This document shows, piece after piece, positions 30,642 to 36,447 of a stretch of 56,288 nt of DNA (positions are counted from its first letter, which is position 1; every line of letters begins with the position of its first letter). This stretch comes from Dehalococcoidia bacterium. Lineage in GTDB: Bacteria > Chloroflexota > Dehalococcoidia > Lucifugimonadales > UBA826. The stretch lies in assembly GCA_029936675.1 (NCBI GenBank), contig JAPYSB010000013.1, positions 1-56,288 of the forward strand, read 5' to 3'. A program made the position numbers and the translations under genes. The notes beneath the pieces are model-generated. The model searched no databases. It had not been told where the DNA came from and worked only from the letters and a program-made list of their open reading frames with translations.

Positions 30642-31079
30642 TTAGGTTACAGGTATAACTTTGATTTGTGTTTTCTCAGATTTAGGCAAAACGATTTCCA
30701 GTACCCCATCTTTGTAACTTGATTTTGCCCTATCTGAATCGACCGGCCTAGGCAACTTTATATCCCGCTTCATATGCGTATTTAGCCGTTCATTGATTAG
30801 CAATTTGACAACCTTTTCATCCTGCATAGGTTTCTTATTGGAGACTTCGATTTCTAAGTAATCTTTCTCTAATTGTATTTGCACCTGAGAGGGGTCCACA
30901 CCTGGTAAATCAGCTTTCAATGTGAAGTTATCATCATCTTCGAATAAATCGATAATCATGTTACTGGAGACAAATGTATGGGTCTTATTTTTGAATTGTG
31001 GATACAAAAAAGAAGAAACCGTAGAATCAAAAAACGAATCAATGATGGTTTTATTTGCAGGGATCATTAGTGGAAGCAT
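30642..31079 (-). CDS. Hsp20 family small heat-shock protein
   Basis: 145 residues from ATG 31079, chosen because AAGGAG lies five bases before it and too close to the in-frame GTG 31085. The alpha-crystallin domain spans about residues 40-140, with FTLKADLPGVDPSQVQIQLE and the C-terminal SYKDGVLEIVLPKSE (A-x-x-x-n-GvL motif). The tail ends IKVIPVT, holding an I-x-I/V motif used for oligomer contacts. It works as an ATP-independent holdase. The strong promoter overlaps an inverted repeat. Confidence 0.93.
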   Translation of the reverse strand: MLPLMIPANKTIIDSFFDSTVSSFLYPQFKNKTHTFVSSNMIIDLFEDDDNFTLKADLPGVDPSQVQIQLEKDYLEIEVSNKKPMQDEKVVKLLINERLNTHMKRDIKLPRPVDSDRAKSSYKDGVLEIVLPKSEKTQIKVIPVT

Positions 31080-31116
31080 TTTCACTCCTTCAATATTTTT
31101 TAGTTACTCATTTCAT

Positions 31117-32169: not shown

Positions 32170-32248
32170 CTACAATTGGGGATTTTTTGAGCTAGGTACA
32201 GTCGTATAATTAGACAAAGCAGAATATTCGAATCTATGCAGGTGTAAT

Positions 32249-32307
32249 TACTTAGGTGGAATTGCCGTTGTAATGGTCACCCATAGCCTTTATTATTTTA
32301 AGGACAT
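32249..32307 (+). promoter_or_regulatory. Promoter of lipoprotein A, near-identical to that of lipoprotein B
   Basis: An upstream element CTTAGGTGGAATTGCCG (32251-32267) is directly followed by TTGTAA (-35, 32268-32273), 17 bases, TATTAT (-10, 32291-32296), and AAGGACAT three bases later. Every block recurs with the same spacing at 34418-34476. Conservation of a promoter between duplicates while the spacers differ argues for function. Confidence 0.68.
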
Positions 32308-32349: not shown

Positions 32350-34329
32350 ATGAAGCAGCTAATGCTTATATTTGCTATTTCCATCCTTTCTGTCGCTGCT
32401 CTAGCCTGCGGTCCTGCTGTAGGAAGGGCTGTTGGTGATGCTCAGGTTGACGTCGACGCAACTCTTGCTGAGATGGGGGAACCGACAACGGAAGCTGAAA
32501 AGGAACTTTATGGAATGATGAAAGAGATTGATCGTCTCCATAAAGAGGAAAGAGAAGACCTAGTAGGTGCCCTTTCTGATTCAGGCCAGGTCATCAATCA
32601 ACTTATACTGACCCTGGAAACTCTCGGTGAAGAGTTGGATCCTGAGGCTTTAGCAAAGATAAGTTCCGTTGCCGCCAGCGGGGGGGATGTTGATGTATTT
32701 TTCCAAGGGCTGAGAGAACAGGCATACCAGGCCTCCGCAAAGGAAGCGGAAATTAATAAGCTTCTTGCAAACGAAGAACAGGCGACTTGGAACAGGATTA
32801 AATTTTTAAACGAGCAATTGGATAAAGCCAATGCTGAAAAAGCAGAGATCAAAGGCCACCTAGAAAAAGCGGAAGGCGATCTTGAAACAGCTGACAAAGA
32901 CGAAAATAAATGGATAGCTTCCAACCTCAATAAAGAGCAGGAAAAACAGATGCTCGAAGTCAGGATGGAAAGGGCCGCCGGAAAATTTGAGGTGGTCTCA
33001 GCCTTGTTGACTGAAGTTCTTGGCAATGAGGACACGGATGAAGCTAAAGCACCATCGGACTTTGAGAAGAGCGCAGAAGAAGCCGGTCGATACCAAGCAG
33101 CAGCCATATTCCATGACTGCTTAGTAGATTCGGGAGTCGAGGTTAAAGAAACCACTAGAGACGAAATGAAACATTGTCGGCAAGGTGTATTAGACGAAGT
33201 AGCACTACAGGGCAGGGGGTCTGTTGAAATTGTTGGCGGAAAAGTGATTTCAAACCCAACCTATGTGGCTATGCTAAATACCGACGACGTTAAGGAAGTT
33301 GTAGACGCCTTTATGCACTGTGCCCAAGCTGCTGACGCCAAAAGAATCATAGGCCCAGCTGCTGAAGGTTGTAAAATGGAGGCGAAAGAAATTCATCACG
33401 ACGCAGCCGGCTCAGGTGATTCATTTACAGATCAAGTCGCAAATAGGATTTCGGGTAATAACGCTGATGCAAGAAGGACACGAAAATTCCTTGACGTTAA
33501 AGCAGAGGGCATCGGTGACGGCAAATTTACCGAAAACCTTGAAAAAGTAATGTACCGAAAAGGTGGTTCAAGAGGTGAGATGAGGGACGCCCTCAAGGGC
33601 ATGATAGACGATGCGAAGAGTGACCTAGATTGTGATCCTCAAGGTACGAGAGCAAGGCGATGTGACGATATTAGATTACCAGCCATGGACGAGAGAGCTG
33701 GAGCTGGTCAAGGGAGAAAGATTCCTATAGCTCACCAGTATGAGAACCGTATTAACAATGATAACCGCGGAGGCGGAGGTGGTCAGAACCAAGGACTTCC
33801 ACCTGGTATTACAAAGGCGCAATTTAATGAAGTCTTTGGTGGCGGTGAACCTCGATCGGTGGTTAAAGAGCGGGTCGACCAGTGCGTTGCTGATGGTAAT
33901 CCCATGAACGAGTGTCTTAGTGATGTGAAGAATGATATGAGGAAAGAGTTTAAGAGTCACGAAAACTTTGACCAAAATAAGTATTCGGACAGAAAAGAAT
34001 TGGACGCTCTAACTACAGGGGCGGTACGTCAAAATAGGGAAAAAGCACAAGGTGACGCTGGCCACGCTATGAATACAGACCAATTCGGTGGTAATGGTGA
34101 CGGGGTTGGTAAGAGAGGAGGGCAAAATTTCAACCAGTGCATGAGTGACACTGCTGGTGGAGGGCCCAAATATAACTCAGACGGTAACTTCGTCAGTTCA
34201 GCATCACACGGTGACGCTGCTGATAACTGTATGACCCAAGCCTCACACACAATGCAAAATTCCTATGGAAACAAGGATATGGGTGACCATACAGGTATGA
34301 CTCAGGGCGGCACAGGAGTCCAACAATAG
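32350..34329 (+). CDS. Unrecognised lipoprotein A: coiled coil plus five cysteine pairs
   Basis: 659 residues from ATG 32350, chosen for GAGG eight bases upstream and an immediate signal peptide; an in-frame upstream extension is unlikely. Lipobox LAC with Cys20, followed by GPAVGRAVGDA and VDVDATLAEM, also present in protein B. Residues ~50-230 are Glu/Lys-rich with heptad-like helices (coiled coil), including RIKFLNEQLDKANAE. Beyond it ten cysteines form five pairs: 257/276, 324/341, 428/438, 512/522 and 597/627, likely disulfides outside the membrane. The C-terminal third is Gly/Asn/Gln-rich (RGGGGGQNQG). I know no family for it. It should be anchored to the outer face of the membrane; a structural or surface role is only a guess. 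Confidence 0.85.
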   Translation: MKQLMLIFAISILSVAALACGPAVGRAVGDAQVDVDATLAEMGEPTTEAEKELYGMMKEIDRLHKEEREDLVGALSDSGQVINQLILTLETLGEELDPEALAKISSVAASGGDVDVFFQGLREQAYQASAKEAEINKLLANEEQATWNRIKFLNEQLDKANAEKAEIKGHLEKAEGDLETADKDENKWIASNLNKEQEKQMLEVRMERAAGKFEVVSALLTEVLGNEDTDEAKAPSDFEKSAEEAGRYQAAAIFHDCLVDSGVEVKETTRDEMKHCRQGVLDEVALQGRGSVEIVGGKVISNPTYVAMLNTDDVKEVVDAFMHCAQAADAKRIIGPAAEGCKMEAKEIHHDAAGSGDSFTDQVANRISGNNADARRTRKFLDVKAEGIGDGKFTENLEKVMYRKGGSRGEMRDALKGMIDDAKSDLDCDPQGTRARRCDDIRLPAMDERAGAGQGRKIPIAHQYENRINNDNRGGGGGQNQGLPPGITKAQFNEVFGGGEPRSVVKERVDQCVADGNPMNECLSDVKNDMRKEFKSHENFDQNKYSDRKELDALTTGAVRQNREKAQGDAGHAMNTDQFGGNGDGVGKRGGQNFNQCMSDTAGGGPKYNSDGNFVSSASHGDAADNCMTQASHTMQNSYGNKDMGDHTGMTQGGTGVQQ

Positions 34330-34354
34330 AATAGAAATAGTTTTTAAACGAGCG

Positions 34355-34394
34355 AAAAAAGCCGGTCTATGAGTTCTCATAGACCGGCTTTTTC
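34355..34394 (+). terminator. Intrinsic terminator after lipoprotein A
   Basis: A GC-rich perfect stem GCCGGTCTATGAG / CTCATAGACCGGC, flanked by AAAAAA and TTTTT. It is 25 bases after the stop and before the second copy of the promoter, so lipoproteins A and B are separate transcripts. The A/T tracts make it usable in both directions. Confidence 0.93.
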
Positions 34395-34417
34395 ATTAGT
34401 AATCATTCACGTATTAA

Positions 34418-34476
34418 TACCTAGGTGAAATTGCCGTTGTTAACCTCCGGAAAAGGATTTAATATCGTAAGGACAT
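34418..34476 (+). promoter_or_regulatory. Promoter of lipoprotein B, near-identical to that of lipoprotein A
   Basis: CCTAGGTGAAATTGCCG (34420-34436) directly followed by TTGTTA (-35, 34437-34442), 17 bases, TAATAT (-10, 34460-34465) and AAGGACAT three bases later. Of the 25 bases from 34418, 22 match the copy at 32249. It sits right after the terminator of gene A. Confidence 0.68.
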
Positions 34477-34510
34477 ATTTAATTAAACAATCCATTAGGG
34501 GTCAAAATAC

Positions 34511-36382
34511 ATGAAGCAGCTGATAATGCTTTTTGCCATTTCTATGTTAACCGTTGCGATATTTGCATGCGGACCTGCCGTAGGTAGAGCCGTTGGAGAC
34601 GCTGAAGTAGACGTGGATGCAACGCTTGCCGAAATGGAACCACAAACAGAATCGGAACAAGAACTATATGACATGCTCAAAGAGATTGACCGATTGCACA
34701 AAGAGGAGAGGGCAGAGCTATTAGCAGCCCTCAGCAATTCCAGTGGGGTCATTGATGAACTTCTCGTATTAATAGGGCACGATGTAAATTTTGATGTAAA
34801 TTCTCTATCAGCCGGTAGTTTAATCGACGGAGGAGCCGGGGATACAGACCTATCAGATCTTATAACCCGTGCTAAATCGACCAGAGATCGGGAAGAGGAA
34901 ATACAGACCGCCCTTGAAAATGCTGAGAAAGTTCCATGGGATCGAATTAAGTTTCTTAACGAGCAGTTAGAGTCGGCCAACGCCGAGTTAGGTGCTCTAA
35001 ATAAAGACCTCTCCGAGGCAGCTAAAGAATTAGATCATGCAGACCAACTTGAAGCAAAACTGGTTTTTGGATTAAAAGGACAGGATTCTGAATACACTGC
35101 CTTGGCAAGAAGAGCAGAAGAAGCCTCTGAAAAAATAGAGGTGATTGGGCACATTCTCCAGGTAGCATTCGATGGTGAAGGTGAAGAAGAATCTGCGACC
35201 GAAAAACTGATACGACTCGATGGTAGAGAAATTATCGCCGCACACCTAGAAGATTGTATCAATGATTCGCAATCATCAAATTCCAGAGTGGCCAGAGAAG
35301 ACTGTGCTGATGAAGCGATTGTATATCACCAAGACATGAGACTTTTTGAACCCACTGATGTGGATAACATCAATAATGCTGCAATGTTGTCCGACCCAGA
35401 CACGGAGGACGCTATTTACGGGGTAATAGACTGTTTGGAAGAGATGGAAAACATAGTATTCACCATGGACATGGTTGAAGATCCTGTGACGGGTGACTTT
35501 ATCGGAAGGGCTGAGCTATTCCAACGTAACTGCTACAGAAATGTGAACGAGAGTATTGTCGCATCTGCTGATGGAAACTCCCCAGACGGTAGGGCAGTAA
35601 TCAGCAGTAGCGACGATGCCGCGACATCATTAAAAAGAAAGCTTGACTCTGAGGATAGAGAGGCCAGGGCGATGCGTAAAGCTATCCGAAATGGACTCGA
35701 TGACATAAGCGACAAGCAGTTCAAATCCAGCGTGGAAGACCTTTTATATGACAAATCTTTAACTGGAGAAGGTGTCGAAACCCTAATGGGTAACATCCTG
35801 AACCTCGCGCAAGATGATCTAGAATGTGATCCTCACGGTATTAAAGGTGAGCCTTGTGACTATGACGATGAATATTACGAAGATGATCTCGAGGATATAA
35901 CCAGCAACACAGCAATGAGACTTCACGAAGAAATCTGTGAACTTGACGGCATGAAAGACGATTGTTGGGAAGCTCTAGAAGATCCTATTTGGTCTATCGT
36001 TAATCAGGCAGCTGAATCCTTATATTCAACAGCAACAACCCTGGGTAGCGATGAAGCATACGCAAAACTTAACGGTATATCTGATGTCATATCCAATGCG
36101 ATTCTATCTTATCAAAACCTAGCCCTACAATTTGCAAACGTCGATGGTGATGCTCTTAACGATGTGGTTCAAAATGCAGCAGCAGGGCTAGTTGGTGGTA
36201 TTACCCAAGGCGATAACTGGGGCATGGGAGGGGCTGTTAGTGGCGAGTTCGAAATTTGTATCAATACTCTGGTTGAATCTGACGATATGGAGATCGGAGA
36301 TGCTGCCGCTGAGTGCCTTGAATACACCTCAAGCGCTTTTTCAGCAGAATTTGGGTTGGGAAATAGTAATAAAGACGATTAG
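34511..36382 (+). CDS. Unrecognised lipoprotein B: paralogue of lipoprotein A
   Basis: 623 residues, with AGGGG nine bases before the ATG. The signal peptide ends FAC (Cys20), then GPAVGRAVGDA and VDVDATLAEM as in A. The coiled-coil part holds RIKFLNEQLESANAE. As in A there are exactly ten further cysteines in five pairs: 249/265, 308/341, 439/449, 476/485 and 583/602. The third pair is the best conserved, with ten residues between cysteines and DLECDPHG here against DLDCDPQG in A. The rest has diverged: B is very acidic (DYDDEYYEDD) and lacks the Gly/Gln-rich tail. Old tandem duplicates kept under the same promoter; function unknown. Confidence 0.85.
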   Translation: MKQLIMLFAISMLTVAIFACGPAVGRAVGDAEVDVDATLAEMEPQTESEQELYDMLKEIDRLHKEERAELLAALSNSSGVIDELLVLIGHDVNFDVNSLSAGSLIDGGAGDTDLSDLITRAKSTRDREEEIQTALENAEKVPWDRIKFLNEQLESANAELGALNKDLSEAAKELDHADQLEAKLVFGLKGQDSEYTALARRAEEASEKIEVIGHILQVAFDGEGEEESATEKLIRLDGREIIAAHLEDCINDSQSSNSRVAREDCADEAIVYHQDMRLFEPTDVDNINNAAMLSDPDTEDAIYGVIDCLEEMENIVFTMDMVEDPVTGDFIGRAELFQRNCYRNVNESIVASADGNSPDGRAVISSSDDAATSLKRKLDSEDREARAMRKAIRNGLDDISDKQFKSSVEDLLYDKSLTGEGVETLMGNILNLAQDDLECDPHGIKGEPCDYDDEYYEDDLEDITSNTAMRLHEEICELDGMKDDCWEALEDPIWSIVNQAAESLYSTATTLGSDEAYAKLNGISDVISNAILSYQNLALQFANVDGDALNDVVQNAAAGLVGGITQGDNWGMGGAVSGEFEICINTLVESDDMEIGDAAAECLEYTSSAFSAEFGLGNSNKDD

Positions 36383-36410: not shown

Positions 36411-36447
36411 AAAAATGACAGGCCCCATTTTAGGGCCTGTCATTTTT
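36411..36447 (+). terminator. Intrinsic terminator after lipoprotein B
   Basis: Stem ATGACAGGCCC / GGGCCTGTCAT with a short AT loop, preceded by AAAA and followed by TTTTT. Different in sequence from the terminator of A, so it did not arise with the duplication or has been replaced. Confidence 0.92.

Follow-up and report, generated by a model that had tools for sequence, protein, structure and literature searches.

The window analysed here is a 56,288-nucleotide stretch of DNA from a Dehalococcoidia bacterium of the Chloroflexota (contig JAPYSB010000013.1 of assembly GCA_029936675.1; here contig C50 of genome G000), which belongs to SAR202, probably to its group II. It contains two neighbouring genes transcribed in the same direction, here called A (32350..34329, plus strand) and B (34511..36382, plus strand), that code for lipoproteins of 659 and 623 amino acids. 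Comparison of their sequences indicated that the two belong to a new family, that their cysteines are conserved in pairs, and that they carry a putative promoter, signal peptide and membrane anchor of the kind used by a substrate-binding protein (SBP). We read A and B as stalk-and-head surface proteins that would be structural parts of the cell envelope, and we put the probability of this reading at about 0.4.

Results

Both proteins start with a type II signal peptide, having a positive n-region, a hydrophobic core and a lipobox (MKQLMLIFAISILSVAALAC / MKQLIMLFAISMLTVAIFAC), followed by Cys20, which all full-length A and B proteins retain, and by a tether (CGPAVGRAVGDA in A). All 9 genomes searched gave an above-threshold match to the lipidating enzyme Lgt (PF01790), and Cys20 is therefore probably lipidated and serves as a membrane anchor. 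Next comes a charged stretch, at about residues 46-235 of A and 45-230 of B, with no cysteine, one or two prolines and 34-35% charged residues, across most of which helices were predicted in low-confidence models. The remaining part of each protein contains five cysteine pairs, 257/276, 324/341, 428/438, 512/522 and 597/627 in A and 249/265, 308/341, 439/449, 476/485 and 583/602 in B. The C-terminal third of A is rich in Gly, Asn and Gln; B is strongly acidic (calculated isoelectric point of 4.05) and has a conserved core at about residues 372-428. Since A and B share 34% identity across 468 residues, they are, by alignment, paralogues. A preliminary description of these genes, made from the letters alone, had listed their coordinates, Cys20, the shared stretches GPAVGRAVGDA / VDVDATLAEM and RIKFLNEQL, the twenty cysteine positions and a DL(D/E)CDP(Q/H)G motif, and all of them were found as described. 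Its further claim that the rest of the sequence had diverged widely held in part, but went too far in view of the 34% identity and of a shared core without cysteines ahead of pair 3, which is also found in homologues from a sister genus.

Paired cysteines are 19, 17, 10, 10 and 30 positions apart in A and 16, 33, 10, 9 and 19 in B, with 27-98 residues from one pair to the next. This spacing alone is weak evidence, because ten cysteines scattered randomly over the ~400 C-terminal residues had five within-pair gaps of at most 33 in 3.4% of placements for A and in 4.6% for B; spacing was consequently dropped as evidence beyond chance. Conservation, not spacing, is, as far as the alignments go, the real signal for the pairs. 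All ten cysteines were invariant in six complete A orthologues (56-95% identity) versus 40% of all columns, and eight of ten in seven B orthologues versus 49% of all columns, which makes 18 of 20 cysteine columns over both proteins. In the B protein of genome G003, C476 and C485, which form one pair, are both replaced by Arg. The sister-genus homologues have three pairs, to which an insertion in G013 adds a fourth (CX9C), and no unpaired cysteine other than the lipid one occurred among all sequences examined. The expectation that cysteines would be kept in pairs was thus borne out, every gain or loss found in homologues being that of a whole pair. A relationship to the CHCH twin CX9C proteins was considered and discarded, since each CX9C is single and lacks a Pfam match.

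Alignment of twelve hairpins, corresponding to pairs 1, 2, 4 and 5 of A and of B (A1 to B5) and to four pairs of the sister genus, revealed a motif around the paired cysteines, phi-x3-phi-x2-C-phi ... A-x3-C-x3-A-x3-phi, in which hydrophobic residues (phi) stand at -7, -3 and +1 of the first cysteine, and positions -4, +4 and +8 of the second are taken by Ala or some other hydrophobic residue. Because the background of a leave-one-out motif test was partly non-helical, we relied on a register-shift control, in which each hairpin was scored by the profile of the others, with homologous pairs excluded, while both anchors were slid by up to 6 residues. Summed over the 12 hairpins, the true register ranked first of 169 shifts (sum of -28; runner-up -52, mean -211, standard deviation 60), and the best runner-up registers were off by four residues, that is, by one helical turn. 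A disulfide-stapled helical hairpin would be the simplest structure to account for such a motif. In weak AlphaFold2 models, obtained from an input alignment of 7-8 close orthologues, the cysteines of four pairs in A (1, 2, 4 and 5) and of three in B (1, 2 and 4) lie close to where one helix ends and the following one starts. Structural comparison with VIA-align gave a best Z of 6.6, below what helical models reach by chance. The description as an exported, lipid-anchored and helical protein of no recognised family was supported by these analyses. A regular helical-repeat protein was not, given that 8-32 residues lie between paired cysteines without a fixed period, though the hairpins share a motif, and the suggested role as a ligand sensor found no signalling or sensing domain and no partner of that kind.

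Analysis of the upstream regions revealed AGGTGRAATTGCCGTTGT in front of both genes. The putative A promoter region (32240..32296, plus strand) has a direct repeat, AGGTGtAAT / AGGTGgAATTGCC (32240, 32254), in which AGGTGRAATTGCCGTTGT is part of a partial direct repeat of AGGTGNAAT, 14 bp apart. It contains an 18-bp element (32254-32271), a -35 hexamer TTGTAA (32268-32273), a 17-bp spacer and a -10 hexamer TATTAT (32291-32296). The putative B promoter region (34409..34465, plus strand) contains the element AGGTGAAATTGCCGTTGT (34423-34440), a -35 hexamer TTGTTA (34437-34442), a 17-bp spacer and a -10 hexamer TAATAT (34460-34465). The hexamers were read from the sequence, and the final four bases of the element open the -35 hexamer in either form; a consensus promoter scan alone stayed at background, with no more than shuffles yield. 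Since an Rfam scan found no RNA in the window, the conserved element does not correspond to any known riboswitch. With at most 2 mismatches allowed, the 18-bp element was found at three sites genome-wide, before A, before B and at C47:91124 (none with a reversed-pattern control). The third site precedes the gene of an OppA-like SBP lipoprotein (SBP_bac_5, PF00496; E-value of 5e-86), followed by two permease genes. This arrangement with the element was also present in G001, G004, G005 and G006, and the element upstream of A, B and the OppA-like gene was conserved in five genomes (reversed-pattern control 0 to 1 per genome).

The resemblance extends to the N-termini (...IACGQTAIGKAVGDSG in the OppA-like protein; ...LACGPAVGRAVGDA / ...FACGPAVGRAVGDA in A and B), with a like signal peptide and a tether CG-x-A(V/I)G(K/R)AVGD. 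Across 1.37 Mb, the top three scores reached 31-33 bits and the next 19. However, A and B have no SBP domain in Pfam, and the OppA-like protein has no cysteine besides the lipid one. By these comparisons, promoter element, signal peptide and tether are common to three genes with two unrelated body types, and A and B combine a body unrelated to SBPs with a putative promoter, a signal and an anchor of the SBP type, an arrangement new here. A and B look like separate transcription units, since each has its own promoter-like element and a terminal inverted repeat resembling an intrinsic terminator. The one between A and B (AAAAAGCCGGTCTATGAG-TTCT-CATAGACCGGCTTTTT; 34355..34393, plus strand) was read in the sequence and is not in the terminator scanner list, and the one 3' of B (AAAAATGACAGGCCC-...-GGGCCTGTCATTTTT; 36411..36447, plus strand) was likewise read in the sequence; both are long and have a T run. 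An operon of A and B with neighbouring catabolic genes was dropped on the same grounds.

Related anchors or upstream blocks were seen elsewhere. In G007:C151 (L051:3-1637), a 545-amino-acid protein bears the signal and tether of A and B (ILTIAIFACGPAVGRAVGDAEV) on the body of a family of giant coiled-coil lipoproteins (see below); its contig begins within the signal peptide, and it may be a natural fusion or an assembly chimera. A lipoprotein encoded on the minus strand at L162:1-650 (G000:C1) has a tether of similar type (IACGPSVGRATGVTEL), two cysteines and a tail rich in Pro and Thr, and its gene lacks the 18-bp promoter element. The sister-genus homologue (L052, L053 and L054) is preceded by a related block (CAGGTGAAATCACTGTATC) that partly resembles the A/B element and possibly uses the same regulator.

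The distribution of the pair was followed in draft metagenome-assembled genomes. A and B lie side by side in G000, G001, G004, G005 and G006. In G002 the contig breaks off within A, just before B. In G003 the genes lie at the ends of separate contigs, oriented compatibly, and the G007 sequence is fragmentary. The pair thus stays together in all eight members of the genus as far as contigs permit. In the sister genus (G009, G013 and G015) there is a single-copy homologue of 544-563 amino acids that matches B in two blocks, the N-terminal 86 residues and the core B 372-428 (E-values of 1e-5 and 8e-6). Profile searches of 250 genomes of the order and a class sample of 393 found no family members beyond these two genera of one SAR202 family, and the single match in a genome-collection scan was an A orthologue at 94% identity. 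Pfam, NCBIfam and PHROGs yielded nothing significant for A or B, in line with the earlier expectation that no known family would match with confidence, and viral contigs and phages had no relatives of either. Weak matches to DUF1353 and GlnX were far below cut-off, and the best hit of a PDB profile search (E-value of 0.044, a designed tetratricopeptide repeat over 37 residues) was disregarded. On the strength of these searches, the A/B family is new and restricted to two genera.

The ratios of nonsynonymous to synonymous substitution rates (dN/dS) of A and B were 0.16-0.23 where dS was unsaturated, and such low values indicate purifying selection. Both genes evolve faster than the neighbouring enzymes; in the more distant comparisons, identity was 57-74% for A versus 75-84% for the upstream gene. 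The flanking genes, which look metabolic, are kept, with a periplasmic-binding-like gene upstream and a flavin mononucleotide-dependent dehydrogenase gene downstream.

A known rule is that the cysteines of disulfide-bonded exported proteins come in even numbers. Cysteine parity was counted over 1.37 of the 2.19 Mb of genome G000, with lipoproteins predicted by a simple home-made lipobox rule. Among the 25 predicted lipoproteins with cysteines in the mature part, 23 had an even and 2 an odd number, versus 398 even and 458 odd for cytosolic open reading frames (Fisher P of 3e-6, or 1e-5 when A and B are excluded); CXXC pairs, which may be redox or metal sites, make up part of the even counts. 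With ten each, A and B have the highest counts among these lipoproteins. The sole DsbA-family gene found is FrnE-like, without a visible signal peptide, and an unrecognised route of oxidative folding may exist. In the DsbA/FrnE-family gene at G000:C3:187566-188033 (in L146), the active-site position is occupied by an in-frame TGA (DVFFDFA-U-PYVY). The match contains one TGA in eight genomes representing five genera; in genus g3 it contains no TGA. Since SelA is present (E-value of 8.7e-134), the gene probably codes for a selenoprotein; the literature searched has no mention of selenoproteins in connection with SAR202.

Other features of the window and genome were recorded. Upstream of A, between 22021 and 30590, three sulfatase-like genes surround an ATP-binding cassette (ABC) transporter of the Opp/Dpp type (binding lipoprotein plus two permeases), a cluster likely devoted to uptake and desulfation of a sulfated compound. 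A small heat-shock gene of the Hsp20-like type (30642-31085, minus strand) lies between the sulfatases and A and is kept in G004 and G006. Giant coiled-coil lipoproteins of 820-994 amino acids are encoded at L120:4151-7042 (G000:C4:137150-140041, a reading frame of 963 amino acids), L123:3633-9131 and L124:3437-8914, in tandem in genus g3, and their genes adjoin those for a cyclophilin-type peptidyl-prolyl isomerase, a thioesterase-like protein and a pentapeptide-repeat protein.

Discussion

As stalk-and-head proteins, A and B would be exported by Sec and lipidated at Cys20 by Lgt. The cysteine-free stretch of ~190 residues, whose composition (no cysteine, few prolines, ~35% charged residues) fits an extended helical spacer, would form a coiled-coil-like rod raising the C-terminal half off the membrane. 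There each cysteine pair would fasten two successive helices together, where one ends and the other begins, to form rigid hairpins held by disulfides. Since they share a putative promoter and an anchor with an OppA-like lipoprotein, the two genes would be expressed together with that transport system, probably abundantly. In the weakest step of this proposal, A and B would serve as an envelope spacer or coat, and duplication, with one copy acidic (B) and the other rich in Gly, Asn and Gln (A), would yield two non-identical subunits.

Known systems offer partial parallels. Helicobacter Hcp proteins, built of Sel1-like repeats, are exported and helical, with each helix pair tied by one disulfide, as is predicted for A and B. 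However, A and B have no Sel1 match (Pfam, E-value up to 1) and no fixed repeat length, their paired cysteines are variably spaced while those of Hcp are at a constant and short distance, and they have a lipid anchor and a long cysteine-free stretch predicted to be helical. SlaB of Sulfolobus is the membrane-anchored coiled-coil stalk of the archaeal surface layer (S-layer). Likeness to it would be one of working principle, namely a membrane anchor, a helical stalk and an outer head or lattice contact on cells without peptidoglycan; no sequence similarity was found, and A and B have instead a bacterial lipid anchor and a head with cysteine pairs. Within the same two genera, the giant coiled-coil lipoproteins also have long helical bodies, and one member, in G007, bears the A/B anchor, but they differ in sequence, have no or two cysteines in the mature part and match only generic SMC/Rad50 coiled coils. 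Cultured group I SAR202 bacteria have a monoderm envelope by electron microscopy, no encoded peptidoglycan synthesis and an S-layer-like outer layer (PMC10444878). On such cells, anchored and disulfide-hardened stalks would be a plausible substitute for a wall.

Several results weigh against this proposal. The monoderm, peptidoglycan-free envelope is known from group I isolates and is carried over to this genus by analogy. Other genera within this SAR202 family lack members of the A/B family, which means that these proteins are not a wall component of SAR202 in general. Pair 3 (CX9C, DL(D/E)CDP.G) is outside the hairpin motif type and sits in a loop, and A1, B2 and B4 match the motif poorly. 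The structural check proposed in the preliminary description gave models too poor for a fold (mean predicted local distance difference test scores, pLDDT, of 44.5 and 46.7; best Foldseek E-value of 0.15), which leaves the hairpin fold as an inference from sequence. Finally, VKOR was found in none of 13 genomes and DsbB in none of 9, whereas control genomes did match.

The main rival is that A and B are accessories of oligopeptide uptake, capturing material at the surface or acting as a scaffold that keeps peptides or particles near the OppA-like protein. The restriction of the 18-bp element to A, B and the OppA-like gene with its two permease genes, the matching tethers (CGPAVGRAVGD / CGQTAIGKAVGD), the strong SBP_bac_5 match and the presence of another Opp/Dpp-type transporter in the window all speak for it. 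However, A and B are on a different contig from the opp genes, unlinked to them, and have no binding domain, and past recombination could share a promoter and an anchor without a shared function; we consider this role unlikely. The surface anchor, the lineage restriction and the lower identity of A than of its neighbour would also suit adhesins or decoys exposed to particles, phage or grazers, but with low dN/dS, no adhesion domain match and no similar sequence in phages or viral contigs this is improbable.

Other explanations concern the cysteines themselves. That their number and pairing were simply inherited from one ancestor, with no special selection for disulfides, would account for equal pair numbers in duplicates and agrees with a spacing that chance reaches in 3-5%. 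The invariance of 18 of the 20 cysteine columns, the fact that cysteines are lost and gained as whole pairs, and the even-number bias of the lipoproteins argue against it; we hold it to be rather improbable. Metal or redox-active sites, by which A and B would store or sense metals or redox state, would likewise explain conservation in pairs, and the C-terminal part of A is rich in Met and His in G001 and G006 (14 His and 16-19 Met in the last 220 residues). This enrichment is, however, not kept across all species, the 8-32 residues between partners do not correspond to CXXC or CXXXC, the hydrophobic motif fits a structural staple better, and Csp copper stores appear in the VIA-align list at the noise level for helical models, so that such a function is very improbable.

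Returning to the stalk-and-head reading, its parts could be joined into a broader picture, in which the disulfide-stapled hairpin would be a new module building a lineage-specific coat in peptidoglycan-less SAR202, the disulfides would be made by an unrecognised oxidative pathway, and the genes would have arisen when an SBP promoter-signal-anchor cassette moved onto a new body; taken as a whole, this picture is quite unlikely. SAR202 bacteria count among the cells that are common in the dark ocean, and at issue is how a monoderm, reportedly peptidoglycan-less cell builds its surface. The even-cysteine bias in a genome with no recognised DsbB or VKOR makes disulfide formation in SAR202 a testable question, and the conserved, anchored A/B pair with its transporter-type promoter would be a concrete and testable surface candidate.

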